Assembly: GCA_024220505.1 (NCBI GenBank)
Contig: JAKZZE010000029.1
Span: 618,900-682,899 of the forward strand
Length of the DNA stretch: 64,000 nucleotides
Source of the DNA: Rhizopus arrhizus
Taxonomy: Eukaryota; Mucoromycota; Mucoromycetes; Mucorales; Rhizopodaceae
Direction: 5' to 3'
Below the pieces are notes generated by a model, which did no database searches, was not told the DNA's origin, and was given only the letters and a program-made list of their open reading frames with translations. How positions within the stretch are numbered: position 1 is the stretch's first letter; each line of letters starts with the position of its first letter. Position numbers and translations under genes: made by a program. Shown here piece after piece: positions 14,689-59,851 of the stretch.

Positions 14689-14731
14689 TTTTTTTCAATA
14701 AGCCACTCCAACTATTACCACCACTACAAAC

Positions 14732-40054: not shown

Positions 40055-40126
40055 AGAGGAATCCGTGGATTGAACACGGGACCTAAAGATTTGCAATCTT
40101 CCGCTCTACCGCTGAGCTAATCCCTC
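40055..40126 (-). tRNA. tRNA-Cys (GCA)
   Basis: On the minus strand the 72-nt sequence folds as a cloverleaf. The acceptor is GAGGGAT/ATTCCTC, the D stem GCTC/GAGC, the anticodon stem GAAGA/TCTTT with loop TTGCAAA (anticodon GCA), and the T stem CCGTG/CACGG with loop TTCAATC. The discriminator base is U, as expected for tRNA-Cys. It has no intron. A T run follows (plus-strand A at 40047-40053), a Pol III terminator. The A box TAGCTCAGCGG spans the LINE insertion point. It looks functional. Confidence 0.95.
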
Positions 40127-40182
40127 ACTTTTCTTTCGCTTTTGGTTCAAAAGGTAAACTTGTTTATTTTTCAAAAAAGCCG
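40112..40182. repeat. 71-nt LINE target (first 15 nt of tRNA-Cys plus flank), copy 1
   Basis: It runs from CTGAGCTAATCCCTC (complement of tRNA nt 1-15) to AAAAAAGCCG. The same 71-72 nt occurs after L1 (45200-45270) and after L2 (53342-53413) with one or two changes, as expected of a long target-site duplication. Confidence 0.85.
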
Positions 40183-40325
40183 ATAACTCCTCCAAATCAA
40201 GCCATCCATCTCCAATTTTTACACCATTCGATTCATCTTTCAAAAACACACCTTTTGGTATCTTTAATTTTTCGAATACATCAACTTTACATCGCTTTTT
40301 TACCGTTTGAAGTTAATCACAAAAG

Positions 40326-41297
40326 ATGGGACCCTTAAGAAAAACCTTGGGTTCAAGGATCCCCAACGCCGCCGCCTCAACAAACTCAGCAAATTCCAAT
40401 GCTGACGTCACTCTTCAGTCTTTGGCTGCAGCCTACGAAGACCTCACTGCCCGCTTGAGTGCCTTAGAGCAGCTCCAGCTCGAAAACGCTCGCCTTTTGG
40501 AACTGACCAACAGTCAAGCCAATGAGATTGCTTCCTTGCGTGCCCAACTGGCCGCACAATCTGCCGGGTCTCCTAGGGACACCCCAAGTTCAAATGCCGC
40601 TGCTTCTTCTCCTGCTCCTCAAAATGGTGCTAAAGAGACCGTTTCTTCGCCCTCTTTGGGTACTGCTGCTTCATCTTGGGCTACTGTGGCTTCACGTGGT
40701 TCCAAGAACAAACTCCGTCGTCGTGCCGCTGCTGCAAGAGGCTTCCAGCCTGTTACAGGTGAACAAGGATTTGAGTACGTATACATTCCTAGATCTCGCA
40801 AAATGTCGTACACCGAAGCTCGTCGTCGTCTTGGTCGCTTGGGTGTTGACACCTGGCGGGTGCTAGATGTTTCGTTTCCCGCCCACTCCGTTGTTGGTCT
40901 GCTTGTCCATCTTCAGTACAAGCCTGCTCTCGTCTCTTTGCTGGAGAAAGCAAAGATCAAGGTCCTTGATCAATTCGATCCCTTAGATCCGGACAACGTT
41001 GCTGACCCTACTTTCTCTTCTGCGTCTCTTGAGGTGCGTCAAGAAAAGATGGCGCACATTTCTAATGAGCGTTGCCTTCGTACCCTTGAGCGCTTGCGCT
41101 ATCCTGTTGCTGTTGCTGTCTCTCGTTTCTTTTTGGCCAATGCCATGGTGTCTGATGAGGCTGTCTCTGAAGTCTTGGCTGCCAAGCAAGATCGTCCTGC
41201 CTTCCCACGCCATCGTGACCAACCTGACGATGAAATGCTTCTGGATCAGTATGATCAAGACCGTCCTGCCTCTCGCTCCAGCTTTGGATCATTATAA
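40326..41297 (+). CDS. LINE L1 ORF1 protein (323 aa)
   Basis: The N-terminus has a coiled coil (about residues 25-75, LTARLSALEQLQLENARLLE). A Ser/Ala-rich linker follows, then a basic patch (NKLRRRAAAARGFQ) and a folded domain (~140-260) with FEYVYIPRSRKMSYTEARRR, RVLDVSFPAHSVVGLLVHLQ and RYPVAVAVSRFF. The role is presumably RNA binding and RNP assembly, as for ORF1 of other non-LTR elements. No CCHC knuckle is present. The stop TAA (41295-41297) shares its last base with the ORF2 ATG, inside a palindrome CATTATAATG (41290-41299). Confidence 0.85.
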   Translation: MGPLRKTLGSRIPNAAASTNSANSNADVTLQSLAAAYEDLTARLSALEQLQLENARLLELTNSQANEIASLRAQLAAQSAGSPRDTPSSNAAASSPAPQNGAKETVSSPSLGTAASSWATVASRGSKNKLRRRAAAARGFQPVTGEQGFEYVYIPRSRKMSYTEARRRLGRLGVDTWRVLDVSFPAHSVVGLLVHLQYKPALVSLLEKAKIKVLDQFDPLDPDNVADPTFSSASLEVRQEKMAHISNERCLRTLERLRYPVAVAVSRFFLANAMVSDEAVSEVLAAKQDRPAFPRHRDQPDDEMLLDQYDQDRPASRSSFGSL

Positions 41298-44200
41298 TGA
41301 TGAGTAGTAATACTTGTCATTATAATGCACCCTCGGTCTCTCCATCTGGTATGGTCCCAGATCCGTCAACCCCTTCCTCTCCTTTGGTTTCTCTTGGTTC
41401 TCATGGCTTCCATGGTTCATCCTCTCGTTCTCCTTCATCAACTTCATCTGTTCCGCTTACCATCGGCTTGTGGAATGCCAACGGTCTCCAGGCTTCCACA
41501 GTCGATGACCTCCTCCGTCACTGCCAGTCGTTCTCGTTGGTCTTTATTACCGAAACCTGGTTGCTTCCTCCTGCTCGCCTTCCGACCTCATGGCAGCAGT
41601 TCCATCTCTATGGCTCTCCAGTTGCAGGTCAGTATCGTGGTTCTATGGGTGTCTCTGCCTTGGTCTCTCCTCGGTGTCCACTTCCTGTGGTTGAGTTCCC
41701 TGTGAACTGTAAGTATGCTCTTGGTCTGCAGTTGGGTCGTTCCCTACGGCTCATCTGTCTCTACCTGCCTCCTTCTCTGTCTACTGCTGAGGTACAGTCT
41801 GTTCTGGATTCACTGCCACTCACTGACGATACGATCATCTGTGGTGATCTGAATGTTCGTCTTGGTCGTCTCGTCGGTGACTCTCGTACTAACATGCGTA
41901 GCTCTGTCCTTCGTCGTTGGTGCAATGATCATGGTCTTAACATCCTGAACAAGACACTTGCCTATGGTATTCCAACATACCTGACTTGCCGTGGTCATGC
42001 TGAGGTAAGCAGCATTGTAGACTACTACATCACCAACATGCCACTGGTTCGTTCAGCAAGTATCTCGGTTGCCTTGGATCTTTCTTTGGGGTCAGACCAC
42101 AAACTGATGTCACTCTCTTTTGAGTACTCGGTCCCTGTGGTCCATTCCACACAGCCTTCTTCTTCTCCATCTGGTCAAGTCCGTCGTCTTTGGAACCTTT
42201 CTCGGTTGAAAGAACCAGAAGTCCAGAAGCTGTATGTGTCCACCTTTGGTTCCTTGTCTGCTGCTTTGCTTGACCAGCTTCAACAGCTGTGTTCAAGTCC
42301 ACCGTCAACACGTCCACCCATTGACCATCTCAACGATGAACTCAATGCGGCCATCTACTCTGCTCTGGACAAGTCTGTTGGATCTCGTGTCTCTCGACCC
42401 AAGCAATGGAAGAAGTTTTGGACCTTTCAACTACAGGCTCTGGCTGATCGTCGAGACTGGCTCTACCGTAAGTGGCGTTGGTCTCTTGGGATTGACAAAG
42501 CTTACTGGTGGGGTCTTCATCAAGAAGCTCATGTCCGTTTCCGCACGGCTGTCAAGCGAGCTAAACGAGAATCTTGGCGTGCCTTTTGTGACTCCCTCGC
42601 TCGTGGCGACTTTTCTTCTGCGGTGCGTAGGGTCAAGCAAGTCCATAACCGTCGTCGTCCTCAAGTCTCATATGCTCATCCTGATGGTCCTGTCGCTGGT
42701 GCCAATGCTATGCGAGATCATCTTGCATCCGTCTACTCTGGCTCTGGTCTACCATCCACTCGTCCTCCTCCTCTTCCATCGTCTGATGATCATGTCCCTT
42801 TTGATCTTGCGTCAGCTTCTGAGGATGACCCATCTGGCTCTGGTCTTGGTTCTAGTCTTGGTTCTAGCCTTGGTTCTGGTCTTGGTCCTGGTTCTGGTTC
42901 TGGTGCTGGTCTTTCTTCTTTTTCGGCTGACTCTGTTGCTGACACAATGCGACGTCTTCCTTTACGCAAAGCTCCTGGCTCTGATCATCTGCGTACAGAG
43001 ATGCTTATTCCCATTCGTAAACAAGTAGCTGCTATCCTGGCTCGTCTCTTTGATATCTGCTGCCAATGGTCTTACACTCCTTCTCTTTGGCGTCATGCGC
43101 AGGTCGTGCCTATCTATAAGAAGGGCGACCCTCATCAACCGTCAAACTTCAGGCCGATCTCCTTGACGTCCATCATCCGAAAGCTGTTTGAAATGTGTCT
43201 CTTTCCACTCTTACAAGATGTCTCGCCTCCATTGGACATTGCTCAAGGTGGTTTCCGTCCACAGCGAAGTGCTCTTGACCAAGCCCTCTGCTTGCATGAC
43301 TTGATACAGGAGTACTATCGCCGAAAGCGTCATTTTCCTGTCGTGGCTTTTCTTGATATCAAGGCTGCCTATGATACCGTCGACAGACGTGTCATATGGC
43401 AATCACTCTTGGCTGTCTCTGCTCCTTTTGCTCTGGTCTCTGTCTTGGCTCATCTCTTTGATGATGTTTCAATCTCGGTTCTGATGTCTAATCAAGTCTC
43501 GACGCCATTCACACCGAGTACAGGTGTGCTTCAAGGCTCTGTCTTGAGTCCGCATCTGTACTCGATCTACATCAACACGCTGCCTGCTCTTCTTCGTTCT
43601 GCTGCCACGCGTACTACAACAATGGTCTCATCCTTGTCTCCTTCTGGTCCTCCTGGTTCTGATCTTGGTCTTTCTCCTGGTCTTCCTTTTGGTCCGACAT
43701 TGGATGTCTCCTCTCTGTCTTTGTCACCCACAGCCATCAACTCTCTGCTTTATGCTGATGATGTGGCTATTCTCGGTTCTGCAAGCGAAGTCAAACAGAT
43801 GCTTGACCTGGCCCAAATTCATTCACAGGTACTTGGCTACAGATGGAGTCCCACCAAGTGTGCTGTCCTCAATGCACCAGATCCGACGTCGTCAAGATAC
43901 GTCCGACTCACTCTCTATGATGAAGACATACCGTCTGTCGATGAGTTTGTCTATCTTGGTGTGCCATTCGTTCGCAATGGTACCTCTCCGTCTCGTCTGG
44001 TCGCTCATCGCAAGCCTGGTGCTCAGCTCAAGATGGCTCAACTGTCTGCTATTGGTGCCAATCGATCTGGTTTCTCGCTGCTGTTCTCTTCTCGCCTCTA
44101 TGCTATGTTTGTACGTCCCAAGTTAGAGTATGGCCTAGCCATCTCCAAGCTGCTCAAAAAGGACTATGACGAGCTAGAGCGCGCTCAAAGTCGGTGTCTG

Positions 44201-44929
44201 CGTCTGATCGTTGGTGGCCACAAGACCTCGTCGACGGTTGTGCTTCGGCACATCTGTAACCTACCGTCGATGCGTTTCCGTGCTGATACCTTGGTATTGA
44301 AGTTTTGTCTCCGTGTCCAGACTTTACCTGATGACTGTCTCCTGTCGCTGCTTTCTTCTTCGCTGCCATCGTCACTACTATCAACTCTTCGCTCTCGACG
44401 CATTGTGCTCGATCACCCACCAGAAGTTACGGCTCCTTCTCGGCTTAAAACCTGGTTACATGCGTATCGTCAGCAAGAGTTTGATCAGTTCCTGGCTTCG
44501 ACTTCTCAAGTCTTGATTCGAGCCTGTCGTCCTGTACTGCGAGTGGATCCGATCCTCTATGTTCCTGCTTCGCGTGCTGATCGTAGTCGTCTGATACGTT
44601 GGCGTATGGGTTGGCTGCCTGGTGATCCTCGTCCTTGTGCTTGTCTGTTTGGTCATACCACTCGTGCCCATCTCATGGTCTGTCCTCAGGTCCCATCGGC
44701 TCTTTGGTGTTGTCTTCCTTTTCCTCCTGCTGGTTCTACCGAGCTGCACATTGACTATCTCTTGTCCTTGTTGCCTGTTTCTCCTTCTGCTCGTTGTCCT
44801 CCATTCTGGGTCAGTCTTTGTACTATCCTTTGGCACTTTGATCGTCTTTGCAACCCTGATGGTGATTACACCAATGATCCTTCACCTGGATTACTCTGGT
44901 ATGAAAGGTCGACTTCTCGTTCTCGGTGA
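41297..44929 (+). CDS. LINE L1 ORF2 protein: APE endonuclease plus reverse transcriptase (1210 aa)
   Basis: After a Ser/Pro-rich leader comes an exonuclease-endonuclease-phosphatase domain (~55-285): TIGLWNANGL, FITETWLLP with the catalytic Glu, ICGDLNVRLG and GSDHKLMS. A helical region, a variable Gly/Ser/Leu linker (~512-536) and the reverse transcriptase follow: VVPIYKKGDPHQPSNFRPIS (~603), AFLDIKAAYDTVD (~684), GVLQGSVLSPHLY and LLYADDVAILG (~819). A Pro/Ser/Gly-rich insert separates the last two motifs. A Cys/His cluster CACLFGHTTRAHLMVC lies at ~1113-1128. There is no RNase H. The enzyme should nick the tRNA-Cys A box and prime cDNA there. The frame is unbroken. Confidence 0.93.
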   Translation: MMSSNTCHYNAPSVSPSGMVPDPSTPSSPLVSLGSHGFHGSSSRSPSSTSSVPLTIGLWNANGLQASTVDDLLRHCQSFSLVFITETWLLPPARLPTSWQQFHLYGSPVAGQYRGSMGVSALVSPRCPLPVVEFPVNCKYALGLQLGRSLRLICLYLPPSLSTAEVQSVLDSLPLTDDTIICGDLNVRLGRLVGDSRTNMRSSVLRRWCNDHGLNILNKTLAYGIPTYLTCRGHAEVSSIVDYYITNMPLVRSASISVALDLSLGSDHKLMSLSFEYSVPVVHSTQPSSSPSGQVRRLWNLSRLKEPEVQKLYVSTFGSLSAALLDQLQQLCSSPPSTRPPIDHLNDELNAAIYSALDKSVGSRVSRPKQWKKFWTFQLQALADRRDWLYRKWRWSLGIDKAYWWGLHQEAHVRFRTAVKRAKRESWRAFCDSLARGDFSSAVRRVKQVHNRRRPQVSYAHPDGPVAGANAMRDHLASVYSGSGLPSTRPPPLPSSDDHVPFDLASASEDDPSGSGLGSSLGSSLGSGLGPGSGSGAGLSSFSADSVADTMRRLPLRKAPGSDHLRTEMLIPIRKQVAAILARLFDICCQWSYTPSLWRHAQVVPIYKKGDPHQPSNFRPISLTSIIRKLFEMCLFPLLQDVSPPLDIAQGGFRPQRSALDQALCLHDLIQEYYRRKRHFPVVAFLDIKAAYDTVDRRVIWQSLLAVSAPFALVSVLAHLFDDVSISVLMSNQVSTPFTPSTGVLQGSVLSPHLYSIYINTLPALLRSAATRTTTMVSSLSPSGPPGSDLGLSPGLPFGPTLDVSSLSLSPTAINSLLYADDVAILGSASEVKQMLDLAQIHSQVLGYRWSPTKCAVLNAPDPTSSRYVRLTLYDEDIPSVDEFVYLGVPFVRNGTSPSRLVAHRKPGAQLKMAQLSAIGANRSGFSLLFSSRLYAMFVRPKLEYGLAISKLLKKDYDELERAQSRCLRLIVGGHKTSSTVVLRHICNLPSMRFRADTLVLKFCLRVQTLPDDCLLSLLSSSLPSSLLSTLRSRRIVLDHPPEVTAPSRLKTWLHAYRQQEFDQFLASTSQVLIRACRPVLRVDPILYVPASRADRSRLIRWRMGWLPGDPRPCACLFGHTTRAHLMVCPQVPSALWCCLPFPPAGSTELHIDYLLSLLPVSPSARCPPFWVSLCTILWHFDRLCNPDGDYTNDPSPGLLWYERSTSRSR

Positions 44930-45199
44930 AATGTGTTTTGATTGTTCCTCTGGCTTCTACCTCCCACTGCCACAACCACTTAGTGCACGATGCGGAGGAG
45001 ACCACGAACATGATATCCTACAAACTAGCTCTTTTGATTTCTCTTTTTGCTTCTCTTCTCTCTCCTCTTTTTTGGTCCATCAAATGGTCGCTAGGACTTT
45101 TTTTCGCATCATGTATACCCTCTTTTTGTACTTTGATTAGCAAATAATGGCCTAAAGGTCGATTGCATTAATCTTTTAAATAAAAACATAAATTTTCGA

Positions 45200-45270
45200 C
45201 TGAGCTAATCCCTCACTTTTCTTTCGCTTTTGGTTAAAAAGGTAAACTTGTTTATTTTTTAAAAAAGCCG
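45200..45270. repeat. 71-nt tRNA-Cys target remnant between L1 and L2
   Basis: It is copy 2 of the LINE target, with two base changes from 40112-40182. It ends at GCCG, where element H is inserted. Confidence 0.88.
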
Positions 45271-45903
45271 CACTGCACCCAATCCCTATATTCTAAATTA
45301 TTATACTTCGGGTGTTTTAACAGTTGAACTTCGAATAAAATAATACAAATTTGAATTTGCAGGATAGAGATATAATATTTGTATCAAAAAAAACCTAGAA
45401 AAAAATATATGTTATTTCTATAACGATATGTATATGTTTATAATCTGTATATTGGATAAAAAGAAATTGTATTTCTTGTAAAAAAATTTTTGTCTCTTTT
45501 GTACTACATGAATCCATGCAAACTTATAAACTGGGAAAATGAAAAGTTTTCAAATTCAGTGTATGATTTTTTAATTTCAACAAAGGTCAATAACGTAAAT
45601 CCATTGGACTGTAAGCTCGGAAATTTAACTGCTTGAGTTGCGACGTCCTCTTGCCAAGCATACTCGATTTGCTATACTGCAAAAAAAAAAGAAAGTACAT
45701 AGTACATCTACCCAAAAAAAATAATTTTGTAGGTTTATAATGAAAAGATAGAGAGCAACATTACTTAAATTGTGAAAGGGAACATGAGTTCGATGCTTTT
45801 ATCCAACGAAGAGTAAAATTAATTATTTATAATTGAAATAAAAGAATGGTCTATAGGGAAGTAATAAATATAAACGTTAAATAAAAGATAAAAGCTAGAA
45901 ACA

Positions 45904-45975
45904 AAAATGAACAAGGAAAAAGGAAAAAAAAAAAAAGAAAAAAGAAAAAAGAAAAAAGAAAAAAGAAAAAAGAAA
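45904..45975. repeat. GAAAAAA heptamer tandem repeat
   Basis: About eight units of AAAAAAG/GAAAAAA inside element H. It is simple-sequence and non-coding. Confidence 0.75.
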
Positions 45976-46256
45976 ATGGTATTTCTTTTTTTGACCGTAA
46001 GGAAAATAGCATCTATCAAAGATGATAGTGCAATGTTTAAAGGACTAAAGCTAAGCAGAAAATAGAAGGGTATGGGTTTGGTAATCATTTTTATTTTTAA
46101 TTGCAAAAAGAAACAACAATATTAACATCAAGTAAATTTACATGGCTTGAGATCCCTTATAACAGAGACTATAAGAAAGAGTTATTGTTAATGAAATAAA
46201 ATAGAACATTTTGATAGATTTAGAAAAAAAAGAAAGTGATGTTGAAATTAGAGAAT

Positions 46257-46330
46257 TGCAATGTCGGAATTACTTGCATGTCAAAAAAAAGCAATGTTGG
46301 AATTACGTGCATGTTAAAAAAAAAGAATGT
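46257..46330. repeat. Two-copy ~36-nt tandem repeat in element H
   Basis: Units built on GCAATGTYGGAATTAC and TGCATGTYAAAAAAAA stand directly next to each other, and a third truncated unit follows. Confidence 0.7.
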
Positions 46331-46830
46331 TAAAAGTGACATTGCAAAAGAATACTTACTTTTACAAATTGTCTTAAGCTGAACAAACCTACTTACAGGA
46401 TATTCGTTTTATTTATAGAGCATACAGAGACTTACTTTAGGTTATAGAAAGCGGTTTTAGAAATTGCACTGAAATTGGAAATTTTTTTTGATCAAGTACT
46501 TTGAAAAAAAAAATCTAGCTGAGACGTCAACTACAAATGTTTTAATTCATTTACCTTTGTGTGCTAATTACAATGTATTATTCAGTATGTATGCCTTTAT
46601 TTATGAGCTTTTTGTCCTATCTTTGATAAAGAATATCATCACTTTGCCTTTTTTTTTTTCTTTTTTTTTGGATTACCGCAGTACACTTAACTAAACTCCA
46701 TCATTTCTTTTTTGTAAAGTAGTGCACTTATGTAAACTAATCAATATAATACTGAATATGATGGGAAAAGATTCAAATATCTTATCACAAAAGTTGAATT
46801 GATTTTACTCGATGAAAAATTTATTCTTGT

Positions 46831-47177
46831 TTAGCGGCACTTGTATAATGTCGGTAATGTAACAACATCAATTGAAACTTGTTCTTCCTCTGGAACTTCA
46901 AACTGAGTATTAAAGATTCTTATTGTTTGATTTTGGAGCTGTATATAAGGAGTTCATAAAGCGACGTATCAATTGTATAAAAGTTTTTGTTGTATTTATA
47001 CAAAAAGTAAATACTCATAGATAAATTTAATACTACTGAATTACAGTAAAACTATATCTCTATAAATAAATATGAGACCTCTGCAATGATCACCTTTGAT
47101 GTATTGTTCATATCGGTAGAGCTAGGATTACGAGCATTGACAGGTGCAGGGTTGATTTCGATAATACGGTCAGACAT
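46831..47177 (-). CDS. Hypothetical small spliced gene in element H (56 aa)
   Basis: Exon 1 (47079-47177) starts at ATG with MSDRIIEINPAPVNARN and ends at a GTCTCA donor. Exon 2 (46831-46902) follows TACTCAG and reads FEVPEEEQVSIDVVTLPTLY to TAA. Splicing 176 nt keeps the frame at a codon boundary. The amino-acid composition looks protein-like, unlike the surrounding AT-rich DNA. The donor is weak and I do not recognise the protein. A captured host gene fragment is possible. Confidence 0.28.
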
Positions 47178-48076
47178 ATTGATATAAGGTACTTTGAAGG
47201 AAAAGTAAAGAAACTTAACGTTGAAGCTAGACACACCTTAAATACTATTGCGTTCAACTGTAAACTCAGTTCTATTCAAGTCAAAAAATCTATAAAAGGA
47301 TTGATGTCTCAGATGAATCTTTTCTTTTCTTTCTTTCTTTTTTTTTGATTTGTTATCCCAGGTAAGTCTCTCTTTTTTTAAATTTTTTTTTCTAATGTTC
47401 TTTATTAAAGATTTATAGATATGCTCATGGCTATCATAAGTCCTTGAGTCTTTCTGTATCTGTTTATGTGGTAAGTATGCTTTTAAACCTTCATTATCTT
47501 TATTAACAATCAAATTTTGTTTTTTAGGCTTGATTCTGAAGCTGTTTGAATAGTTTGGCATTGTCTTCTGGTTTTGAAAGAGGTTTAATGTAAGAAAATC
47601 GGGTACATCATGTTTCACTGTAATTAATCTTTCATTTTATCTAGCTTTGACTCTATTTTCCTCCTGTTTAGTCTACTGTCTTTATCTTTATATTGCTTTT
47701 GATCTCTTTTGAGGCTGCTTCATTGTATTTGTTTATTTTGCCTGATTTGTCTGCTATATTCTATTGTTTGATGCTTCTGAGGTCAAGGTAAGTGCAATTT
47801 TGAAAAAAAAAAATTTTTTTTTTGTATCTACCGTTTAAAGGTGATGTTTCATTATTCCCATAAATTCCCTGCTCCTCCCCCCCTCTTTTCTTTAAATCAT
47901 ATTTAATAATCAAATGAACCAATAATATATAATCAATATGGCAAAAGAGCCCAAAAATAAATGAATAAAACCACATTTTTGACCAATAATACTGTATTTT
48001 AAGCCTATTTTTTTCCTAATACAAATCATCCAGAGCTATATATAATCATAATAAACCAATAAGAAAGTATTGTGAA

Positions 48077-48179
48077 AAGGCAATAAGCCAATAAAGAAGT
48101 AATATTAAAGAGAAATAGACCTATAAGGAAGCTTTGCTAAAAGGCTATAAGCCAATAAAGAAATAGCATCAAAGAGAAA
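48077..48179. repeat. Subterminal direct repeats of element H
   Basis: Two 39-nt copies built on AAGCCAATAAAGAA and AAAGAGAAA at 48077-48115 and 48141-48179. They lie about 240-340 bp from the right end, where CACTA transposases of known elements bind repeated motifs. Confidence 0.55.
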
Positions 48180-48560
48180 CGCAAGCATGTAAGGTCCAAT
48201 GGAAAAGCGTTATGTTTGTGTATCATCGTAGAAAGAACAATGAAGCGGCGCGTCACCAAAAGTAACACGGTATTTTATATACATATCTTAACATTTCGAG
48301 CAAAATATGCGAAGTACATATTTTATGGAATCTGTAAATATATTGACGTAAACCCGAAATATCTCATTATATTCTGTCAAATATAATGCTATATATATAG
48401 CAATTATGTGCAGTGCCGATAACTCCGCCAAATCAAGCCATCCGTCTCCAATTTTTACACCATTCGATTCATCTTTCAAAAACACACCTTTTGGTATCTT
48501 TAATTTTTTGAATACGTCAACTTTACATCGCTTTTTATCAGTTTGAAGTTTGTCAAAAAG

Positions 48561-49463
48561 ATGGGACCCTTAAGAAAAAACTTGGGTTCAAGGATCCCCA
48601 ACGCCGCTGCCTCAGTAAACTCAGCAAATTCAAATGCTGACGTCACTCTTCAGTCTTTGGCTGCAGCCTACGAAGACCTTACTGCCCGCTTGAGTGCCTT
48701 AGAGCAGCTCCAGCTCGAAAACGCTCGCCTTTTGGAACTGACCAACAGTCAGGCCAATGAGATCAATTCTTTACGTGCACAGCTTGCCGCACAATCTGCC
48801 GGAACTCCTAGGGACACCCCAAGTTCAACTGCCGCTGCTTCTTCTCCTGCTCCTCAAAATGGTGCTAAAGAGACCGTTTCTTCGCCCTCTTTGGGTACTG
48901 CTGCTTCATCTTGGGCTACTGTGGCTTCACGTGGTTCCAAGAACAAACTCCGTCGTCGTGCCGCTGCTGCAAGAGGCTTCCAGCCTGTTACAGGTGAACA
49001 AGGATTCGAATACGTGTATATACCTAGATCTCGCAAAATGTCATACACTGAAGCTCGTCGTCGTCTTGGTCGCTTGGGTGTTGACACCTGGCGGGTGTTA
49101 GATGTTTCATTCCCAGCTCACTCCGTTGTTGGTCTGCTTGTCCATCTCCAGTACAAGCCTGCTCTCGTCTCTTTGCTGGAGAAAGCAAAGATCAAGGTCC
49201 TTGATCAGTTCGATCCCTTAGATCCGGACAACGTTGCTGACCCTGCTTTCTCTTCTGCGTCTCTTGAGGTACGTCAAGAAAAGATGGCGCATATTTCCAA
49301 CGAGCGTTGTCTTCGTACCCTTGAGCGCTTGCGCTATCCTGTTGCTGTTGCTGTCTCTCGTTTCTTTTTGGCCAATGCCATGGTGTCTGATGAGGCTGTC
49401 TCTGAAGTCTTGGCTGCCAAGCAAGACCGTCCTGCCTCTCGCTCCAGCTTTGGATCATTATAA
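48561..49463 (+). CDS. LINE L2 ORF1 protein (300 aa)
   Basis: It starts at the ATG of MGPLRKNLG, matching L1. It has the same coiled coil, basic patch and folded domain. It lacks 23 residues near the C-terminus (between AAKQDRPA and SRSSFGSL). In L1 and L3 that segment lies between two copies of GAYCGTCCTGCC, so slippage or recombination between the repeats removed it in frame. The TAATG overlap with ORF2 is kept. Confidence 0.85.
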   Translation: MGPLRKNLGSRIPNAAASVNSANSNADVTLQSLAAAYEDLTARLSALEQLQLENARLLELTNSQANEINSLRAQLAAQSAGTPRDTPSSTAAASSPAPQNGAKETVSSPSLGTAASSWATVASRGSKNKLRRRAAAARGFQPVTGEQGFEYVYIPRSRKMSYTEARRRLGRLGVDTWRVLDVSFPAHSVVGLLVHLQYKPALVSLLEKAKIKVLDQFDPLDPDNVADPAFSSASLEVRQEKMAHISNERCLRTLERLRYPVAVAVSRFFLANAMVSDEAVSEVLAAKQDRPASRSSFGSL

Positions 49464-52400
49464 TGATGAGTAGTAATACTTGTCATTATAATGTATCCTC
49501 GGCCTCTACATCTGGTATGGTCCCAGATTCGTCAACTCCTTCCTCTCCTTTGGTTTCTCTTGGTTCTCATGGCTTCCATGGTTCATCCTCTCGTTCTACA
49601 TCATCAACTTCATCTATTCCGCTCACCATCGGCTTGTGGAATGCCAACGGTCTCCAGGCTTCCACAGTCGATGATCTCCTCCGTCACTGCCAGTCGTTCT
49701 CGTTGGTCTTTATTACCGAAACCTGGTTGCTTCCTCCTGCTCGCCTTCCGACCTCATGGCAGCAGTTCCATCTCTATGGCTCTCCAGTTGCAGGTCAGTA
49801 TCGTGGTTCTATGGGTGTCTCTGCCTTGGTCTCTCCTCGGTGTCCTCTTCCTGTGGTTGAGTTCCCTGTGAACTGTAAGTATGCTCTTGGTCTGCAGTTG
49901 GGTCGTTCTCTACGGCTCATCTGTCTCTACTTGCCTCCTTCTATGCCTACTGCTGAGGTACAGTCTGCTCTGGATTCTCTGCCACTCACTGACGATACGA
50001 TCATTTGTGGTGATCTGAATGTTCGTCTTGGTCGTCTCGTCGGTGACTCTCGTACTAACATGCGTAGCTCTGTCCTTCGTCGTTGGTGCGACGACCATGG
50101 TCTCAACATCCTGAACAAGACTCTTGCCTATGGTATACCAACATACCTGACTTGCCGTGGTCATGCTGAGGTAAGCAGCATTGTAGACTACTACATCACC
50201 AACATGCCACTGGTTCGTTCAGCAAGTATCTCGGTTGCCTTGGATCTTTCTTTGGGGTCAGATCACAAACTGATGTCGCTCTCTTTTGAGTACTCGGTCC
50301 CTGTGGTCCATTCCACACAGTCTTCTTCTCCTCCGTCTGGTCAAGTTCGTCGTCTTTGGAATTTATCTCGGTTGAAAGAACCAGAAGTCCAGAAGCTGTA
50401 TGTGTCTACCTTTGGTTCCTTGTCTGCTGCTTTGCTTGACCAGCTTCAACAGCTGTGCTCAAGTCCACCGCCAACGCGTCCACCCATTGACCATCTCAAC
50501 GATGAACTCAATGCGGCCATCTACTCTGCTCTGGACAAGTCTGTTGGATCTCGTGTCTCTCGACCCAAGCAATGGAAGAAGTTTTGGACCTTTCAACTAC
50601 AGGCTCTGGCTGATCGTCGAGACTGGCTCTACCGTAAGTGGCGTTGGTCTCTTGGGATTGACAAAGCTTACTGGTGGGGTCTTCATCAAGAAGCTCATGT
50701 CCGTTTCCGCACGGCTGTCAAGCGAGCTAAACGAGAATCTTGGCGTGCCTTTTGTGACTCCCTCGCTCGTGGCGACTTTTCTTCTGCGGTGCGTAGGGTC
50801 AAGCAAGTCCATAACCGTCGTCGTCCTCAAGTCTCATATGCTCATCCTGATGGCCCTGTCGCTGGTGCCAATGCTATGCGGGATCATCTTGCATCTGTCT
50901 ACTCTGGCTCTGGTCTGCCGTCCACCCGTCCTCCTCCTCTTCCATCGTCTGATGATCATGTCCCTTTTGATCTTGGATCCTTGTCTGAGGATGACCCATC
51001 TGGTTCTGGTCTTGGTCTTGGTCTTGGTGCTGGTCTTGGTTCTGGTTCTGGTCTTTCTTCTTTTTCGGCTGACACTGTTGCTGACACAATGCGTCGACTT
51101 CCTCTGCGCAAAGCTCCTGGCTCTGATCATCTTCGTACAGAGATGCTTATTCCCATACGCAAACAAGTAGCTGCTATCTTGGCTCGTCTCTTTGATATCT
51201 GCTGCCAATGGTCTTACACTCCTTCTCTTTGGCGTCATGCGCAGGTCGTGCCTATCTACAAGAAGGGCGATCCTCATCAACCGTCAAACTTCAGGCCGAT
51301 CTCCTTGACGTCCATCATCCGAAAGCTGTTTGAGATGTGTCTCTTTCCACATTTAGAAGATGTCTCGCCTCCACTGGACATTGCTCAAGGTGGTTTCCGT
51401 CCACAGCGAAGTGCTCTTGACCAAGCCCTCTGCTTGCATGACTTGATACAGGAGTACTATCGTCGAAAGCGTCATTTCCCAGTCGTGGCGTTTCTTGATA
51501 TCAAGGCTGCCTATGATACTGTCGACAGACGTGTCATATGGCAATCACTCTTGGCTGTCTCTGCTCCTTTTGCTCTGGTCTCTGTCTTGGCTCATCTCTT
51601 TGATGATGTTTCAATCTCGGTCCTGATGTCTAATCAAGTCTCGACGCCATTCACTCCGAGTACAGGTGTACTTCAAGGCTCTGTCTTGAGTCCGCATCTG
51701 TACTCGATCTACATCAACACGCTGCCTGCTCTTCTTCGTTCTGCTGCCACGCGTACCACAGCAATGGTCTCATCCTTGTCTCCTTCTGGTCCTCCTGGTT
51801 CTGATCTTGGTCTTTCTCCTGGTCTTCCTTTTGGTCCGACATTGGATGTCTCCTCTCTGTCTTTGTCACCCACAGCCATCAACTCTCTCCTTTATGCTGA
51901 TGATGTGGCTATTCTCGGTTCTGCAAGTGAAGTCAAACAGATGCTTGACCTGGCCCAAATCCATTCACAAGTGCTCGGCTACAGATGGAGTCCTACCAAA
52001 TGTGCCATCCTTAATGCTCCAGATCCGACGTCGTCAAGATACGTCCGTCTCACTCTCTACGATGAAGACATACCGTCTGTCGATGAGTTCGTTTATCTTG
52101 GTGTGCCATTCGTTCGCAATGGTATCTCTCCGTCTCGTCTGGTAGCTCACCGCAAGCCTGGTGCACAACTCAAGATGTCTCAACTGTCTGCAATTGGTGC
52201 CAATAGGTCTGGTTTCTCGCTGCTGTTCTCTTCTCGCCTCTATGCTATGTTTGTACGTCCCAAGTTAGAGTATGGCCTAGCCATCTCGAAGCTGCTCAAA
52301 AAGGACTATGACGAGCTAGAGCGCGCTCAAAGCCGATGTCTGCGTCTGATCGTTGGTGGCCACAAGACCTCGTCGACGGTTGTGCTTCGGCACATCTGTA

Positions 52401-53071
52401 ACCTACCGTCGATGCGTTTCCGTGCTGATACCTTGGTGCTAAAATTTTGCCTTCGTGTCCAGTCTTTGCCTGATGACTGTCTCTTGTCGCTGCTTTCTTC
52501 TTCGCTGCCATCGTCACTACTACCAACTCTTCGCTCTCGACGCATTGTGCTGGATCACCCACCAGAAGTTACGGCTCCTTCTCGGCTTAAAACCTGGTTA
52601 CATGCGTATCGTCAGCAAGAGTTTGATCAGTTCCTGGCTTCGACTTCTCAAGTCTTGATTCGAGCCTGTCGTCCTGTACTGCGAGTGGATCCAATCCTCT
52701 ATGTTCCTGCCTCGCGTGCTGATCGTAGTCGGCTTATACGTTGGCGTATGGGTTGGCTGCCTGGTGATCCTCGTCCTTGTGCTTGTCTGTTTGGTCATAC
52801 CACTCGTGCCCATCTCATGGTCTGTCCTCAGGTCCCATCGGCTCTCTGGTGTTGTCTTCCTTTCCCTCCTGCTGGTCCTACCGAGCTGCACATCGACTAT
52901 CTCTTGTCTTTGTTGCCTGTTTCTCCTTCTGCTCGTTGTCCTCCGTTCTGGGTCAGTCTTTGTACTATCCTTTGGCACTTTGACCAGCTTTGCAACCCTG
53001 ATGGTGATTACACCAATGATCCTTCACCTGGATTACTTTGGTATGAAAGGTCGACTTCTCGTTCTCGGTGA
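49463..53071 (+). CDS. LINE L2 ORF2 protein: endonuclease plus reverse transcriptase (1202 aa)
   Basis: Domain order and catalytic motifs are as in L1: WNANGL, FITETWL, ICGDLNVRLG, SDHKLM, IKAAYDTVD, YADDVAIL and the C-terminal Cys/His cluster. The Gly/Ser/Leu linker is shorter (GSGLGLGLGAGLGSGSG). The frame is open throughout, so L2 may be active. Confidence 0.92.
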   Translation: MMSSNTCHYNVSSASTSGMVPDSSTPSSPLVSLGSHGFHGSSSRSTSSTSSIPLTIGLWNANGLQASTVDDLLRHCQSFSLVFITETWLLPPARLPTSWQQFHLYGSPVAGQYRGSMGVSALVSPRCPLPVVEFPVNCKYALGLQLGRSLRLICLYLPPSMPTAEVQSALDSLPLTDDTIICGDLNVRLGRLVGDSRTNMRSSVLRRWCDDHGLNILNKTLAYGIPTYLTCRGHAEVSSIVDYYITNMPLVRSASISVALDLSLGSDHKLMSLSFEYSVPVVHSTQSSSPPSGQVRRLWNLSRLKEPEVQKLYVSTFGSLSAALLDQLQQLCSSPPPTRPPIDHLNDELNAAIYSALDKSVGSRVSRPKQWKKFWTFQLQALADRRDWLYRKWRWSLGIDKAYWWGLHQEAHVRFRTAVKRAKRESWRAFCDSLARGDFSSAVRRVKQVHNRRRPQVSYAHPDGPVAGANAMRDHLASVYSGSGLPSTRPPPLPSSDDHVPFDLGSLSEDDPSGSGLGLGLGAGLGSGSGLSSFSADTVADTMRRLPLRKAPGSDHLRTEMLIPIRKQVAAILARLFDICCQWSYTPSLWRHAQVVPIYKKGDPHQPSNFRPISLTSIIRKLFEMCLFPHLEDVSPPLDIAQGGFRPQRSALDQALCLHDLIQEYYRRKRHFPVVAFLDIKAAYDTVDRRVIWQSLLAVSAPFALVSVLAHLFDDVSISVLMSNQVSTPFTPSTGVLQGSVLSPHLYSIYINTLPALLRSAATRTTAMVSSLSPSGPPGSDLGLSPGLPFGPTLDVSSLSLSPTAINSLLYADDVAILGSASEVKQMLDLAQIHSQVLGYRWSPTKCAILNAPDPTSSRYVRLTLYDEDIPSVDEFVYLGVPFVRNGISPSRLVAHRKPGAQLKMSQLSAIGANRSGFSLLFSSRLYAMFVRPKLEYGLAISKLLKKDYDELERAQSRCLRLIVGGHKTSSTVVLRHICNLPSMRFRADTLVLKFCLRVQSLPDDCLLSLLSSSLPSSLLPTLRSRRIVLDHPPEVTAPSRLKTWLHAYRQQEFDQFLASTSQVLIRACRPVLRVDPILYVPASRADRSRLIRWRMGWLPGDPRPCACLFGHTTRAHLMVCPQVPSALWCCLPFPPAGPTELHIDYLLSLLPVSPSARCPPFWVSLCTILWHFDQLCNPDGDYTNDPSPGLLWYERSTSRSR

Positions 53072-53341
53072 AATGTGTTTTGATTGTTCCTCTGGCTTCT
53101 ACCTCCCACTGCCACAACCACTTAGTGCACGATGCGGAGGAGACCATGAACATGATATCCTACAGACTAGCTCTTTTGTTTTCTCTTTTGGCCTCTCTTC
53201 TCTCTCCTCTTTTTTGGTCCATCAAATGGTCGCTAGGACTTTTTTTCGCGTCATGTATATCCTCTTTTTGTACTTTGATTAGCAAATAATGGCCTAAAGG
53301 TCGATTGCATTAATCTTTTAAATAAAAACATAAATTTTCGA

Positions 53342-53413
53342 CTGAGCTAATCCCTCACTTTTCTTTCGCTTTTGGTTAAAAAGGTAAACTTGTTGATTTT
53401 TCCAAAAAAGCCG
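53342..53413. repeat. 72-nt tRNA-Cys target remnant between L2 and L3
   Basis: It is copy 3 of the LINE target, from CTGAGCTAATCCCTC to AAAAAAGCCG. It directly joins the 3' end of L2 to the 5' end of L3. Confidence 0.9.
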
Positions 53414-53552
53414 ATAACTCCGCCAAATCAAGCCATCCATCTCCAATTTTTACACCATTCGATTCATCTTTCAAAAACACACCTTTTGGTCATTTTAATT
53501 TTTCGAATACGTCAAGTCTATATCGTTTTTACCAGTTTCAAGTTTATCAAAA

Positions 53553-54524
53553 ATGGGACCCTTAAGAAAAAACTTGGGTTCAAGGATCCCCAACGCCGCT
53601 GCCTCAGTAAACTCAGCAAATTCAAATGCTGACGTCACTCTTCAGTCTTTGGCTGCTGCTTACGAAGATCTTACTGCCCGCTTGAGTGCCTTAGAGCAGC
53701 TCCAGCTCGAAAACGCTCGCCTCTTGGAACTTACCAAGTCCCAAGCCAATGAAATCAATTCTTTACGTGCACAGCTTGCCGCACAATCTGCCGGAACTCC
53801 TAGGGACACCCCAAGTTCAAATGCCGCTGCTTCTTCTCCTGCTGCCCCAAATGGTGCTAAAGAGACCGTTTCTTCGCCCTCCTTGGGTACTGCTGCCTCT
53901 TCTTGGGCTACTGTTGCTTCTCGTGGCTCTAAGAATAAACTCCGTCGTCGTGCTGCTGCTGCTCGTGGTTTCCAGCCTGTAACTGGTGAGCAAGGGTTTG
54001 ACTATGTCTACATACCTAGATCTCGCAAAATGACATACACTGAAGCTCGTCGTCGACTTGGTCGCTTGGGTGTTGACACCTGGCGGGTGTTGGATGTTTC
54101 ATTTCCCGCACACTCCGTTGTTGGTCTGCTTGTCCATCTTCAGTACAAGCCTGCTCTCATCTCTTTGCTGGAGAAAGCAAAGATCAAGGTCCTTGATCAG
54201 TTCGATCCCTTAGATCCGGACAACGTTGCTGACCCTGCTTTTGCCTCTGCGCCTCTTGAGGTACGTCAAGAAAAGATGGCGCACATTTCTAATGAGCGTT
54301 GTCTTCGTACCCTTGAGCGCTTGCGCTATCCTGTTGCTGTTGCTGTCTCTCGTTTCTTTTTGGCCAATGCCATGGTGTCTGATGAGGCTGTCTCTGAAGT
54401 CTTGGCTGCCAAGCAAGACCGTCCTGCCTTCCCACGCCATCGTGACCAACCGGACGATGAAATGCTTCTGGATCAGTATGATCAAGACCGTCCTGCCTCT
54501 CGCTCCAGCTTTGGATCATTATAA
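53553..54524 (+). CDS. LINE L3 ORF1 protein (323 aa)
   Basis: The frame is open, with the same layout as L1 ORF1 and with the C-terminal RHRDQPDDEMLLDQYDQDRP segment that L2 lacks. The gene overlaps ORF2 by TAATG at 54522-54526. Confidence 0.87.
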   Translation: MGPLRKNLGSRIPNAAASVNSANSNADVTLQSLAAAYEDLTARLSALEQLQLENARLLELTKSQANEINSLRAQLAAQSAGTPRDTPSSNAAASSPAAPNGAKETVSSPSLGTAASSWATVASRGSKNKLRRRAAAARGFQPVTGEQGFDYVYIPRSRKMTYTEARRRLGRLGVDTWRVLDVSFPAHSVVGLLVHLQYKPALISLLEKAKIKVLDQFDPLDPDNVADPAFASAPLEVRQEKMAHISNERCLRTLERLRYPVAVAVSRFFLANAMVSDEAVSEVLAAKQDRPAFPRHRDQPDDEMLLDQYDQDRPASRSSFGSL

Positions 54525-57500
54525 TGATGAGTAGTAATACTTGTTATTATAATGCATCCTCGGTCTCTACATCTGGTATGGTCCCAGACCCGTCAACTCC
54601 TTCCTCTCCTTTGGTTTCTCTTGGTTCTCATGGCTTCCATGGTTCATCCTCTCGTTCTTCTTCATCAACTTCATCATCATCGTCATCACTCGTTCCGCTC
54701 ACCATCGGCTTGTGGAATGCCAACGGTCTCCAGACTTCCACAGTCGATGACCTCCTCCGTCACTGCCAGTCGTTCTCGTTGGTCTTTATTACCGAAACCT
54801 GGTTGCTTCCTCCTGCTCGCCTTCCGACCTCATGGCAGCAGTTCCATCTCTATGGCTCTCCTGTTGCAGGTCAGTATCGTGGTTCTATGGGTGTCTCTGC
54901 CTTGGTCTCTCCTCGGTGTCCTCTTCCTGTGGTTGAGTTCCCTGTGAGCTGTAAGTATGCTCTTGGTCTGCAGTTGGGTCGTTCTCTACGGCTCATCTGT
55001 CTCTACTTGCCTCCTTCTTTGTCCACTGCTGAGGTACAGTCTGTTCTGGATTCTCTGCCACTCACTGACGATACGATCATCTGCGGTGATCTGAATGTTC
55101 GTCTTGGTCGTCTCGTCGGTGACTCTCGTACTAACATGCGTAGCTCTGTCCTTCGTCGTTGGTGCGACGACCATGGTCTTAACATCCTGAACAAGACACT
55201 TGCCTATGGTATTCCAACATACCTGACTTGCCGTGGTCATGCTGAGGTAAGCAGCATTGTAGACTACTACATCACCAACATGCCACTGGTTCGTTCAGCA
55301 AGTATCTCGGTTGCCTTGGATCTTTCTTTGGGGTCAGATCACAAACTGATGTCGCTCTCTTTTGAGTACTCGGTCCCTGTGGTCCATTCCACACAGTCTT
55401 CTTCTCCTCCGTCTGGTCAAGTTCGTCGTCTTTGGAATTTATCTCGGTTGAAAGAACCAGAAGTCCAGAAGCTGTATGTGTCTACCTTTGGTTCCTTGTC
55501 TGCTGCTTTGCTTGACCAGCTTCAACAGCTGTGCTCAAGTCCACCGCCAACGCGTCCACCCATTGACCATCTCAACGATGAACTCAATGCGGCCATCTAC
55601 TCTGCTCTGGACAAGTCTGTTGGATCTCGTGTCTCTCGACCCAAGCAATGGAAGAAGTTTTGGACCTCACAACTACAGGCATTGGCTGATCGTCGCGACT
55701 GGCTCTACCGTAAGTGGCGTTGGTCTCTTGGGATTGACAAAGCTTACTGGTGGGGTCTCCATCAAGAAGCTCATGTCCGTTTCCGCACGGCTGTCAAGCG
55801 AGCTAAACGAGAATCTTGGCGTGCCTTTTGTGACTCCCTCGCTCGTGGCGACTTTTCTTCTGCGGTGCGTAGGGTCAAGCAAGTCCATAACCGTCGTCGT
55901 CCTCAAGTCTCATATGCTCATCCTGATGGCCCTGTCGCTGGTGCCAATGCTATGCGGGATCATCTTGCATCTGTCTACTCTGGCTCTGGTCTGCCGTCCA
56001 CCCGTCCTCCTCCTCTTCCATCGTCTGATGATCATGTCCCTTTTGATCTTGGATCCTTTTCTGAGGATGACCCATCTGGTTCTGGTCTTGGTCTTGGTCT
56101 TGGTGCTGGTCTTGGTTCTGGTTCTGGTCTTTCTTCTTTTTCGGCTGACACTGTTGCTGACACAATGCGTCGACTTCCTCTGCGCAAAGCTCCTGGCTCT
56201 GATCATCTTCGTACAGAGATGCTTATTCCCATACGCAAACAAGTAGCTGCTATCTTGGCTCGTCTCTTTGATATCTGCTGCCAATGGTCTTACACTCCTT
56301 CTCTTTGGCGTCATGCGCAGGTCGTGCCTATCTACAAGAAGGGCGATCCTCATCAACCGTCAAACTTCAGGCCGATCTCCTTGACGTCCATCATCCGAAA
56401 GCTGTTTGAGATGTGTCTCTTTCCACATTTAGAAGATGTCTCGCCTCCACTGGACATTGCTCAAGGTGGTTTCCGTCCACAGCGAAGTGCTCTTGACCAA
56501 GCCCTCTGCTTGCATGACTTGATACAGGAGTACTATCGTCGAAAGCGTCATTTCCCAGTCGTGGCGTTTCTTGATATCAAGGCTGCCTATGATACTGTCG
56601 ACAGACGTGTCATATGGCAATCACTCTTGGCTGTCTCTGCTCCTTTTGCTCTGGTCTCTGTCTTGGCTCATCTCTTTGATGATGTTTCAATCTCGGTCCT
56701 GATGTCTAATCAAGTCTCGACGCCATTCACTCCGAGTACAGGTGTACTTCAAGGCTCTGTCTTGAGTCCGCATCTGTACTCGATCTACATCAACACGCTG
56801 CCTGCTCTTCTTCGTTCTGCTGCCACGCGTACTACAACGATGGTCTCGTCTTTGTCTCCTTCTGGTCCTCCTGGTCCTCCTGATTCTGGTCTTGGTCTTT
56901 CTCCTGGTCTTCCTTTTGGTCCGACATTGGATGTCTCCTCTCTGTCTTTGTCACCCACAGCCATCAACTCTCTGCTTTATGCTGATGATGTGGCTATTCT
57001 CGGTTCTGCAAGCGAAGTGAAACAGATGCTTGACCTGGCCCAAATTCATTCACAGGTGCTCGGCTACAGATGGAGTCCCACCAAGTGTGCTATCCTAAAT
57101 GCTCCAGATCCGACGTCGTCAAGATACGTCCGTCTCACGCTCTATGATGAAGACATACCGTCTGTCGACGAGTTCGTTTATCTTGGCGTGCCATTCACCC
57201 GTAATGGTATCTCTCCGTCTCGTCTGGTCGCTCATCGCAAGCCTGGTGCTCAGCTCAAGATGGCTCAACTGTCTGCTATTGGTGCCAATCGATCTGGTTT
57301 CTCGCTGCTGTTCTCTTCTCGTCTCTATGCTATGTTTATACGTCCCAAGTTAGAGTATGGCCTAGCCATCTCGAAGCTGCTCAAAAAGGACTATGACGAG
57401 CTAGAGCGCGCTCAAAGTCGGTGTCTGCGTCTGATCGTTGGTGGCCACAAGACCTCGTCGACGGTTGTGCTCCGGCACATCTGTAACCTACCGTCGATGC

Positions 57501-58157
57501 GTTTCCGTGCTGATACCTTGGTATTGAAGTTTTGTCTCCGTGTCCAGACTTTACCTGATGACTGTCTCCTGTCGCTGCTTTCTTCTTCGCTGCCATCGTC
57601 ACTACTATCAACTCTTCGCTCTCGACGCATTGTGCTGGATCACCCACCAGAAGTTACAGCTCCTTCTCGGCTTAAAACCTGGTTACATGCGTATCGTCAG
57701 CAAGAGTTTGATCAGTTTCTGGCTTCTACAACCCAAGTCTTGATTAAGGCATGCCGTCCTGTACTGCGTGTGGATCCGATTCTTTATGTTCCTGCTTCGC
57801 GTGCTGATCGTAGTCGTCTTATCCGTTGGCGTATGGGTTGGCTGCCTGGTGATCCTCGTCCTTGTGCTTGTCTGTTTGGTCATACCACTCGTGCCCATCT
57901 CATGGTCTGTCCTCAGGTTCCATCGGCTCTTTGGTGTTGTCTTCCTTTTCCTCCTGCTGGTTCTACCGAGCTGCACATTGACTATTGCTTGTCTTTGTTG
58001 CCTGTTTTCTCCTTCTGCTCGTTGTCCTCCGTTCTGGGTCAGCCTTTGTACCATCCTTTGGCACTTTGACCAGCTTTGCAACCCTGATGGTGATTACACC
58101 AATGATCCTTCACCTGGATTACTCTGGTATGAAAGGTCGACTTCTCGTTCTCGGTGA
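54524..58157 (+). pseudogene. LINE L3 ORF2, one frameshift near the 3' end
   Basis: The endonuclease, reverse transcriptase and Cys/His cluster are intact up to about 58000. There CCTGTTTTCTCC has one T more than L1 and L2 (CCTGTTTCTCC). This replaces the normal last ~50 residues by a shifted end at 58069; the normal frame continues to 58157. The enzyme core is untouched, so activity may be reduced rather than lost, or the extra T may be a sequencing error in a homopolymer. Confidence 0.8.
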
Positions 58158-58638
58158 AATGTGTTTTGATTGTTCCTCTGGCTTCTACCTCCCACTGCCA
58201 CAACCACTTAGTGCACGATGCGGAGGAGACCATGAACATGATATCCTACAAATTAGCTCTTTTGATTTCTCTTTTGGCTTCTCTTCTCTCTCCTCTTTTT
58301 TGGTCCATCAAATGGTCGCTAGGACTTTTTTTCGTATCATGTATATTCTCTTTTTTGTACTTTGATTAGCAAATAATGGCCTAAAGGTCGATTGCATTAA
58401 TCTTTAAATAAAACATAAGTTTTCGACTGAGCTAATCCCTCATCTTTCTTTCGTGTTTCATACCGTTACACAAGGATTTATTAATTTTATTTTTTATAAA
58501 TCTTTTAAACACTCATATCTCGCTCAATATTGGCCATCCATCAGAACCGATTTCACCATTCAACTCAGCATTATTAATTGCATATAATATCCAATTTTCA
58601 ACTCGCTGCGTTAATTATTCGTCATTTCTTATTTTGCA

Positions 58639-59664: not shown

Positions 59665-59760
59665 TGATGTGTAGTAATACATATTATTATAATGCTTCTG
59701 ATCTGTCTCTACCATCGTCTTCGTCCATTCCTTTGTCTCAGTCCACTCCTTTAACTTATG

Positions 59761-59850
<90 letters not shown>
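59761..59850 (+). repeat. (CAT)30 microsatellite coding for poly-Ser in L4 ORF2
   Basis: Ninety bases of perfect CAT/TCA trinucleotide in the leader of ORF2. L3 has only a few TCA units at the same place (about 54660-54690), and L1 and L2 fewer, so the repeat has expanded in L4. Confidence 0.95.

Positions 59851-59851
<1 letters not shown>

Follow-up and report, generated by a model that had tools for sequence, protein, structure and literature searches.

APE-type LINE families at one fixed A-box position in several tRNA genes of Rhizopus arrhizus, probably placed there by repeated insertion

Can a retrotransposon settle repeatedly inside a tRNA gene and leave an intact gene behind each time? 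This question is raised by a 64,000-nucleotide (nt) stretch of Rhizopus arrhizus DNA (assembly GCA_024220505.1, contig JAKZZE010000029.1, positions 618,900 to 682,899, forward strand; hereafter the window), in which a tRNA-Cys gene is followed by a head-to-tail array of long interspersed nuclear elements (LINEs). We found that the phenomenon is real, not a product of chance, and broader than first stated. Judged from the DNA sequence, it is very probable that LINE families with an apurinic/apyrimidinic endonuclease (APE) were inserted into the A box at one fixed base (tRNA nt 14 or 15 is the last before the junction) by repeated target-primed reverse transcription into the gene at the array head.

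In the window, the first LINE copy, L1, is antisense to the tRNA-Cys gene and begins directly upstream of tRNA nt 1 (Table 1). The word CTGAGCTAATCCCTC, the complement of tRNA-Cys nt 1–15, was found at 40112, 45200, 53342 and 58427, exact in all four cases; by chance, 0.11 occurrences with up to two mismatches were expected in the window, and the maximum among 100 shuffles was 2. The 3' ends of L1, L2 and L3 meet this word at the identical base. A preliminary description of the window had proposed an intact tRNA-Cys gene at the array head, a head-to-tail array of L1 to L3, an APE-type LINE, and one fixed junction base inside the A box that is the same for all three copies. These proposals were borne out: ARAGORN and Rfam (64.6 bits) agree on the gene, and both the Pfam domains and the structural match to the LINE-1 endonuclease given below identify the element. 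A fourth copy starting at 58442 had been missed, and a DNA element, H, is now placed inside L2.

Open reading frame 2 (ORF2) has the layout of an APE-type LINE, with an N-terminal APE-type endonuclease followed by a reverse transcriptase (RT); PF14529 and PF00078 scored above the Pfam cut-off in ORF2 of L1, L2 and L3. The endonuclease model (pLDDT 93.3) gave the human LINE-1 endonuclease as its best PDB match (TM score 0.76, 21% identity), with TM scores of 0.70 for TRAS1 and 0.62 for R1 (structures 2ei9 and 1wdu among the matches). About 80 residues follow the C-terminal C/H motif of ORF2, and the C-terminus is altered and shorter in L3. The 323-residue ORF1 of L1 had no Pfam match; its stop codon and the ATG of ORF2 overlap as TAATG.

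Across the genome, CTGAGCTAATCCCTC occurs 23 times and the reversed control word not at all. Five of these words belong to tRNA-Cys genes and 18 follow LINE 3' ends, and 9 of 17 gaps between the words equal one LINE length. An antisense LINE, in one case 5'-truncated, adjoins nt 1 on the upstream side of all five tRNA-Cys genes found in the genome. A genome search with the last 200 bp of the window's LINE, called family A, located 30 places with a 3' end. Eighteen of these join tRNA-Cys nt 1–15, seven join tRNA-Thr nt 1–15 (CTGTGCTAAACGGGC), one joins a decayed Cys word with two changes, and four lie in other DNA. Thus, 25 of the 30 ends meet an exact tRNA word (26 with the decayed one), which is a defined site as in a sequence-specific LINE, and most copies do not end in unrelated flanks. 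Since the same LINE joins either a Cys or a Thr word, the tail is target DNA and not a part of the element. With 7 of 30 ends at the tRNA-Thr word, tRNA-Cys is rejected as the sole target.

Other LINE families use the same position. The last 342 residues of ORF2 served as a search query, and the best 118 of 732 candidate places were scored. Family A copies reached ~96–100% identity (one copy, with a stop codon, 82%), and further classes near 71%, 64–69% and 51–56% were named D, E and F, respectively. Family B, found at tRNA-Thr on contig C40, is 41% identical over ORF2. Twenty 3' junctions of families D, E and F were chosen to represent clusters, and all 20 join tRNA-like 5' ends (E, 10 of 10; D, 3 of 3; F, 7 of 7). 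On C40, an intact tRNA-Thr (TGT) gene heads an array, and in the 70-kb stretch read there, five family B ends and one family A end join the Thr word.

The intact target genes read were tRNA-Cys, -Thr (TGT), -Ile (AAT), -Phe (GAA), -Pro (AGG) and -Gly (TCC). A LINE 5' end lies directly upstream of the tRNA-Gly gene (L086), the tRNA-Phe gene (L087) and one tRNA-Pro gene (L092, where the LINE end was read over 9 nt only), and a head resembling a short interspersed nuclear element (SINE) lies directly upstream of a second tRNA-Pro gene (L093). Four further target words, E2, E4, E5 and F2, read GGGGAAATGGTGTA, GGTCCCGTGGCGTA, GCGCGGATGGTTAA and GGGGATGTAGCTCAG. The restriction to tRNA-Cys in the preliminary description therefore gives way to six tRNA species and these four words, and to several LINE families and SINE-like elements. 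Sites were grouped by hand by contig, strand and distance for the gap counts: for the Ile word, with 95 occurrences, 41 of 81 gaps are as long as one LINE and 16 have SINE length; for the Pro word, with 50 occurrences, 16 of 41 gaps are as long as one LINE and 15 have SINE length. A single 64-kb stretch of contig C3 holds 16 Ile words.

All targets of families A, B, D and F that were read contain TAGCWCAG. The target words of family E, at least five in number, have little in common except A14 and their position in the A box. Behind the Gly and Pro remnants, family E shows GA where the intact genes have AT and GT, respectively; because GA replaces these letters, the junction of family E falls after A14, with the element ending in TC. 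At their 5' ends, families A, B, E and F and the fourth copy of the window start with CTTT(T)CTTTCG after 0–3 variable letters at most junctions and differ otherwise; the shared start is perhaps a common start signal.

The preliminary description had taken 71–72 nt behind L1 and L2 for a tRNA remnant plus flanking DNA, and thus for a target duplication of about that length. This part did not stand, as the stretch consists of a 15-nt tRNA remnant and 56 nt of the next LINE's 5' end. A 71-bp duplication is ruled out by positions 45215–45270, which are 96% identical to the start of L1 at 40127–40182. The family A 5' end (ACTTTTCTTTCGCTTTTGG) was also found after a tRNA-Thr remnant in the array on C40, and at seven junctions with a 5'-truncated next element (L006, L007, L021, L056, L065, L081 and L084), internal element sequence starts at the first or second base past tRNA nt 1. 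Because of the 5' end behind the Thr remnant and these seven truncated junctions, the target duplication, as read from the junction sequences, is tRNA nt 1–15 and extends no further. In families A, B, D and F, all targets read have G15, which would match a C at the element end, so the inner edge may lie at nt 14 and the duplication may be 14 bp. Both 5'-truncated copies and a target duplication are present, as in APE-type LINEs.

We next consider how the arrays grew, using the last 1.7 kb of 20 of the 30 family A copies (the 10 without full alignment were omitted). Divergence was 3.29% within an array (14 pairs) and 3.35% between arrays (176 pairs), and 37% of 5000 label shuffles gave a within-array divergence as low. 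For 17 of the 20 copies, the nearest relative resides in a different array (one tie). Between L1 of the window and the copy adjoining the tRNA-Cys gene on contig C23, the difference is 0.18%, compared with ~4% between L1 and its neighbours L2 and L3. In the family A tree, Cys and Thr copies are intermixed, with 5 label changes versus about 6 in shuffles. Among the 16 copies of this set that belong to arrays with at least two usable copies, greater distance from the gene end of the array went along with greater distance to the nearest relative, which can serve as a rough indicator of age (11 pairs agreed, 2 disagreed and 1 was tied; exact P 0.019); in the arrays on C4 and C39, where no intact gene was read, the order was set by LINE strand. 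As copies of one array are no more alike than copies of different arrays, serial insertion into the intact gene, and not tandem duplication, is the likely mode of growth. The repeated insertion into one gene that had been suggested for the window is supported, and so is the suggestion that each event leaves a complete tRNA gene.

Three 5' junctions carry tRNA letters. In the element at the tRNA-Pro gene L092, the first letters, AAGAACGC, are complementary to tRNA-Gly nt 1–8. The element at the tRNA-Gly gene L086 opens with GC and then AAGCC, of which AAGCC complements tRNA-Pro nt 1–5, and the one at the tRNA-Phe gene L087 opens with ATACCCGC, which complements tRNA-Phe nt 1–8. The first two show letters of a different tRNA gene, as RNA-mediated moves would give. 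On the simplest reading of these junctions, donor RNAs would have begun within the upstream tRNA remnant, and elements would move between tRNA genes.

From the positions and junctions, the duplication, the array structure, the likeness within and between arrays, and the several tRNA targets, a cycle of insertion can be proposed in which the nicking, the priming, the RNA start and recognition of the A-box DNA by the LINE protein itself are inferred steps. The ORF2 endonuclease would nick the sense strand of the tRNA gene, in family E after nt 14 and in families A, B, D and F after nt 15 (with nt 14 possible). The 3' end released by the nick would act as the primer on which the LINE RNA is copied, starting at the RNA 3' end. 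A cut of the second strand at the tRNA 5' boundary (nt –1/+1) would then duplicate nt 1–14/15. The copy on the gene side would restore a complete tRNA gene, and the far copy would be a remnant without the rest of the A box and without the B box. As only the rebuilt gene would be a full target, later insertions would line up behind it in head-to-tail order. Synthesis of the template RNA would begin in or just upstream of the element and sometimes 5–8 nt inside the donor's tRNA remnant, which would account for the tRNA letters at the three 5' junctions. ORF2 is predicted to be translated by re-initiation at TAATG, for which SART1 provides a precedent.

A wider reading seems to us evenly balanced between true and false. 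It holds that LINE families, together with SINE partners, form a whole guild that occupies the middle of the A box, an address common to all tRNA genes, where each insertion rebuilds the gene, elements switch tRNA species, and the upstream remnant starts the next RNA. If so, tRNA genes would be self-renewing docking sites with transposons piled over tens of kilobases, and the same habit might exist throughout the Mucorales.

An alternative to the proposed cycle assigns the choice of site mainly to tethering by RNA polymerase III (Pol III) factors, TFIIIC or TFIIIB, with the endonuclease selecting only the local base. It would account for the family E words, which agree in little beyond A14 and A-box position, and for the long terminal repeat (LTR) elements that these arrays contain ~10 bp upstream of nt 1. 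It also has a model in Dictyostelium TRE5, which needs the B box and whose ORF1 protein interacts with TFIIIB (PMC5911963; sources with PMC numbers are cited here and below for the retrieved portions of their text). Yet within each family the junction is precise to a single base, compared with a 40–54 bp window for TRE5, every A, B, D and F target read contains TAGCWCAG, and the off-target family A copies begin with CT(G/C), as though some sequence fit were required. We thus consider site choice by tethering possible but rather doubtful. Far less probable is that each gene received one insertion and that the unit of LINE plus remnant was then multiplied by tandem duplication or unequal crossing-over. 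The regular head-to-tail spacing would fit, recombination among ~95%-identical copies is plausible, and the nearest relative of 3 of 20 copies does reside in the same array. However, copies of one array are on average as divergent as copies from different arrays, families alternate within an array (e.g., A among B on C40), and 5'-truncated copies are positioned at exactly nt 1. That the 15-nt tail is the LINE's own, or that the LINE targets older LINE ends with tRNA genes being incidental, is hardly credible. Each array remnant adjoins a LINE 3' end by construction, but the same LINE is joined to the Cys word at 18 ends and to the Thr word at 7, and in the intact Cys, Thr, Gly, Phe and Pro genes that were read, an element lies directly upstream.

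Insertion of LINE families at one A-box base by target-primed reverse transcription, which we prefer, also has observations against it. The four family A ends in other DNA, all of them short pieces (102–322 bp), mean that the specificity is not absolute. A Cys remnant at C4:1789204 lacks an intact gene, with the contig end 2.7 kb beyond, and no LINE end was seen in the 8 nt read upstream of the tRNA-Ile gene (L088). The words E2, E4, E5 and F2 have no intact gene among those read. The 20 junctions of the other families were hand-picked, not random, and came from the 118 best of 732 candidates. Concerning the RNA start, tRNA letters (5–8 nt) appear at just 3 of 66 distinct 5' junctions, counted after excluding sites with fewer than 15 nt beyond the word and merging identical contexts. 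The Phe letters at the tRNA-Phe gene could be due to local slippage, and the carry-over in L092 rests on 9 nt of element.

The elements work like known site-specific LINEs; what is new is the A-box address shared by several families and tRNA species. R1, TRAS and SART of insects are site-specific APE-type LINEs that target rDNA or telomere repeats. They resemble the Rhizopus LINEs in the APE-type endonuclease, the single fixed site and the repeated nature of the target, and SART1 also in its TAATG overlap. They differ in the target itself, and the Rhizopus endonuclease model is slightly nearer to human LINE-1 (TM 0.76 vs. 0.70 and 0.62). The NeSL group includes LINEs that are likewise tRNA-gene-specific, namely NeSL-1_TV (tRNA-Pro), LIN15_SM (tRNA-Arg) and LIN25_SM (tRNA-Glu) (PMC4640811). 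In the retrieved portions, these have a restriction-like endonuclease and come from planaria and, as we take from the suffix TV, Trichomonas, whereas the Rhizopus LINEs are APE-type and fungal, form long arrays, and use one position across several tRNA species and families. The Rhizopus elements, which carry an APE domain and have about 80 residues behind the C/H motif, are not placed in the NeSL group, no search aimed at a restriction-like domain having been made. TRE5, TRE3, NLTR-A and NLTR-B of dictyostelids are APE-type, L1-like LINEs that use tRNA genes, and TRE5 is likewise oriented opposite to the tRNA (PMC5911963, PMC5006619). Their insertions are described as falling into flanking windows (40–54, 2–6 and 39–64 bp upstream, 40–150 bp downstream) and not at one base in the gene; in Rhizopus, the junction lies inside the gene at nt 14/15, with the second edge at nt 1. 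Grem-LINE1 of Mucor, compared by description only, is another L1-like two-ORF LINE of the Mucoromycotina, but it is pericentric, and no word starting with "tRNA" occurs in the retrieved main text (PMC7377519). Dada elements also insert into multicopy tRNA or snRNA genes (PMC3706591, PMC8869645), yet these are DNA transposons and not retrotransposons.

The preliminary description had added that such insertions may be undescribed. In the retrieved portions of the literature found by our searches, including PMC10886601, there was no account of a LINE within the A box of a tRNA gene in any fungus, in keeping with that suggestion; tRNA-specific LINEs of another endonuclease class are known. The arrays would offer a natural case of near one-base LINE specificity for the tRNA A box, with the target gene rebuilt at each insertion. 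As the families differ in the tRNA used and in the exact base, target choice can be compared with differences between their proteins. Stacking with gene rebuilding would allow a parasite to build up harmlessly in essential genes. The arrays raise the questions of what role Pol III factors play, whether the tRNA remnant serves as a start of LINE RNA, and how an array affects tRNA expression, given that all five Cys genes found are occupied.

SINE-like elements use the same sites, and LTR elements lie close to them. Elements between two remnants 521–546 bp apart end in the family F tail (L082, L083 and L084), that is, they have a LINE-like 3' tail at the same target, as a SINE partner would. Behind family E ends lie elements with a different head (L069, L070 and L073). 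By eye alone, letters resembling A and B boxes can be made out in the SINE-like heads; Rfam and ARAGORN call no tRNA in them, and a tRNA recognisable to these programs is rejected. TG-starting sequences were seen ~9–10 bp past tRNA nt 1 (L058–L060 on C40, L018, L023, L050 and L076) and appear to sit within LINE 5' ends. One of them, on C40, has LTRs of 505 bp that are 99.8% alike, and its ORF contains protease, RT and RNase H domains. In Rhizopus oryzae, Ty3-like elements are reported to co-localise with tRNA genes, and LINEs are given as a total only in the retrieved portion (PMC2699053).

The closest named relative of ORF2 is a Rhizopus delemar protein (62%), and others come from Mucor, Phycomyces and Cokeromyces. 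In a quick tree of these relatives with families A and B, A groups with the Rhizopus protein and B elsewhere among the relatives. If A and B share the A-box habit by descent, it would be older than these species and should be met in their relatives. No relatives with DNA context were found among viral contigs by protein or alignment query, nor among genome contigs by protein query; the alignment query gave seven distant loci in genome contigs (23–28% identity, L095–L101), which were not used.

Table 1. The tRNA-Cys gene and the LINE array behind it (positions in the 64,000-nt window)
Feature	Position	Strand	Details
Intact tRNA-Cys (GCA) gene, array head	40055..40126	-	ARAGORN; Rfam RF00005, 64.6 bits
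Duplicated target, tRNA nt 1–15	40112..40126	-	Inner end within A box (TAGCTCAG^CGG)
LINE copy L1	40127..45199	+	5073 bp, apparently full length
L1 ORF1	40326..41297	+	323 aa
L1 ORF2	41297..44929	+	1210 aa, APE-type endonuclease and reverse transcriptase
tRNA-Cys remnant after L1	45200..45214	-	15 nt
LINE copy L2, first 56 nt	45215..45270	+	96% identity to 40127–40182
LINE copy L2, remainder beyond element H	48416..53341	+	ORFs 48561–49463, 49463–53071
tRNA-Cys remnant after L2	53342..53356	-	15 nt
LINE copy L3	53357..58426	+	ORF1 53553–54524, ORF2 54524–58069
tRNA-Cys remnant after L3	58427..58441	-	15 nt
Fourth LINE copy	58442..64000	+	Interrupted 60110–62266, extends past window end

The fourth copy differs from L1 in its 5' end and ORF1 (72% DNA identity), and its endonuclease/RT is L1-like. 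It is likely a chimeric LINE, in which recombination or a template switch would have joined 58442–60109 to the L1-like endonuclease/RT part. This copy is interrupted by an element of 2157 bp, which has inverted ends and shows a duplication of 8 bp, GTTGAGTT. Element H (45271–48415) within L2 is a CACTA-like DNA element with the ends CACTGCA...TGCAGTG and a 3-bp duplication, CCG; it contains no ORF of 200 aa. Elsewhere in the window, we observed an ORF for an 1853-aa Gypsy-type polyprotein with a chromodomain (14702–20263) and two Tc1/mariner-type transposase ORFs (24911–26068 and 27459–28682).

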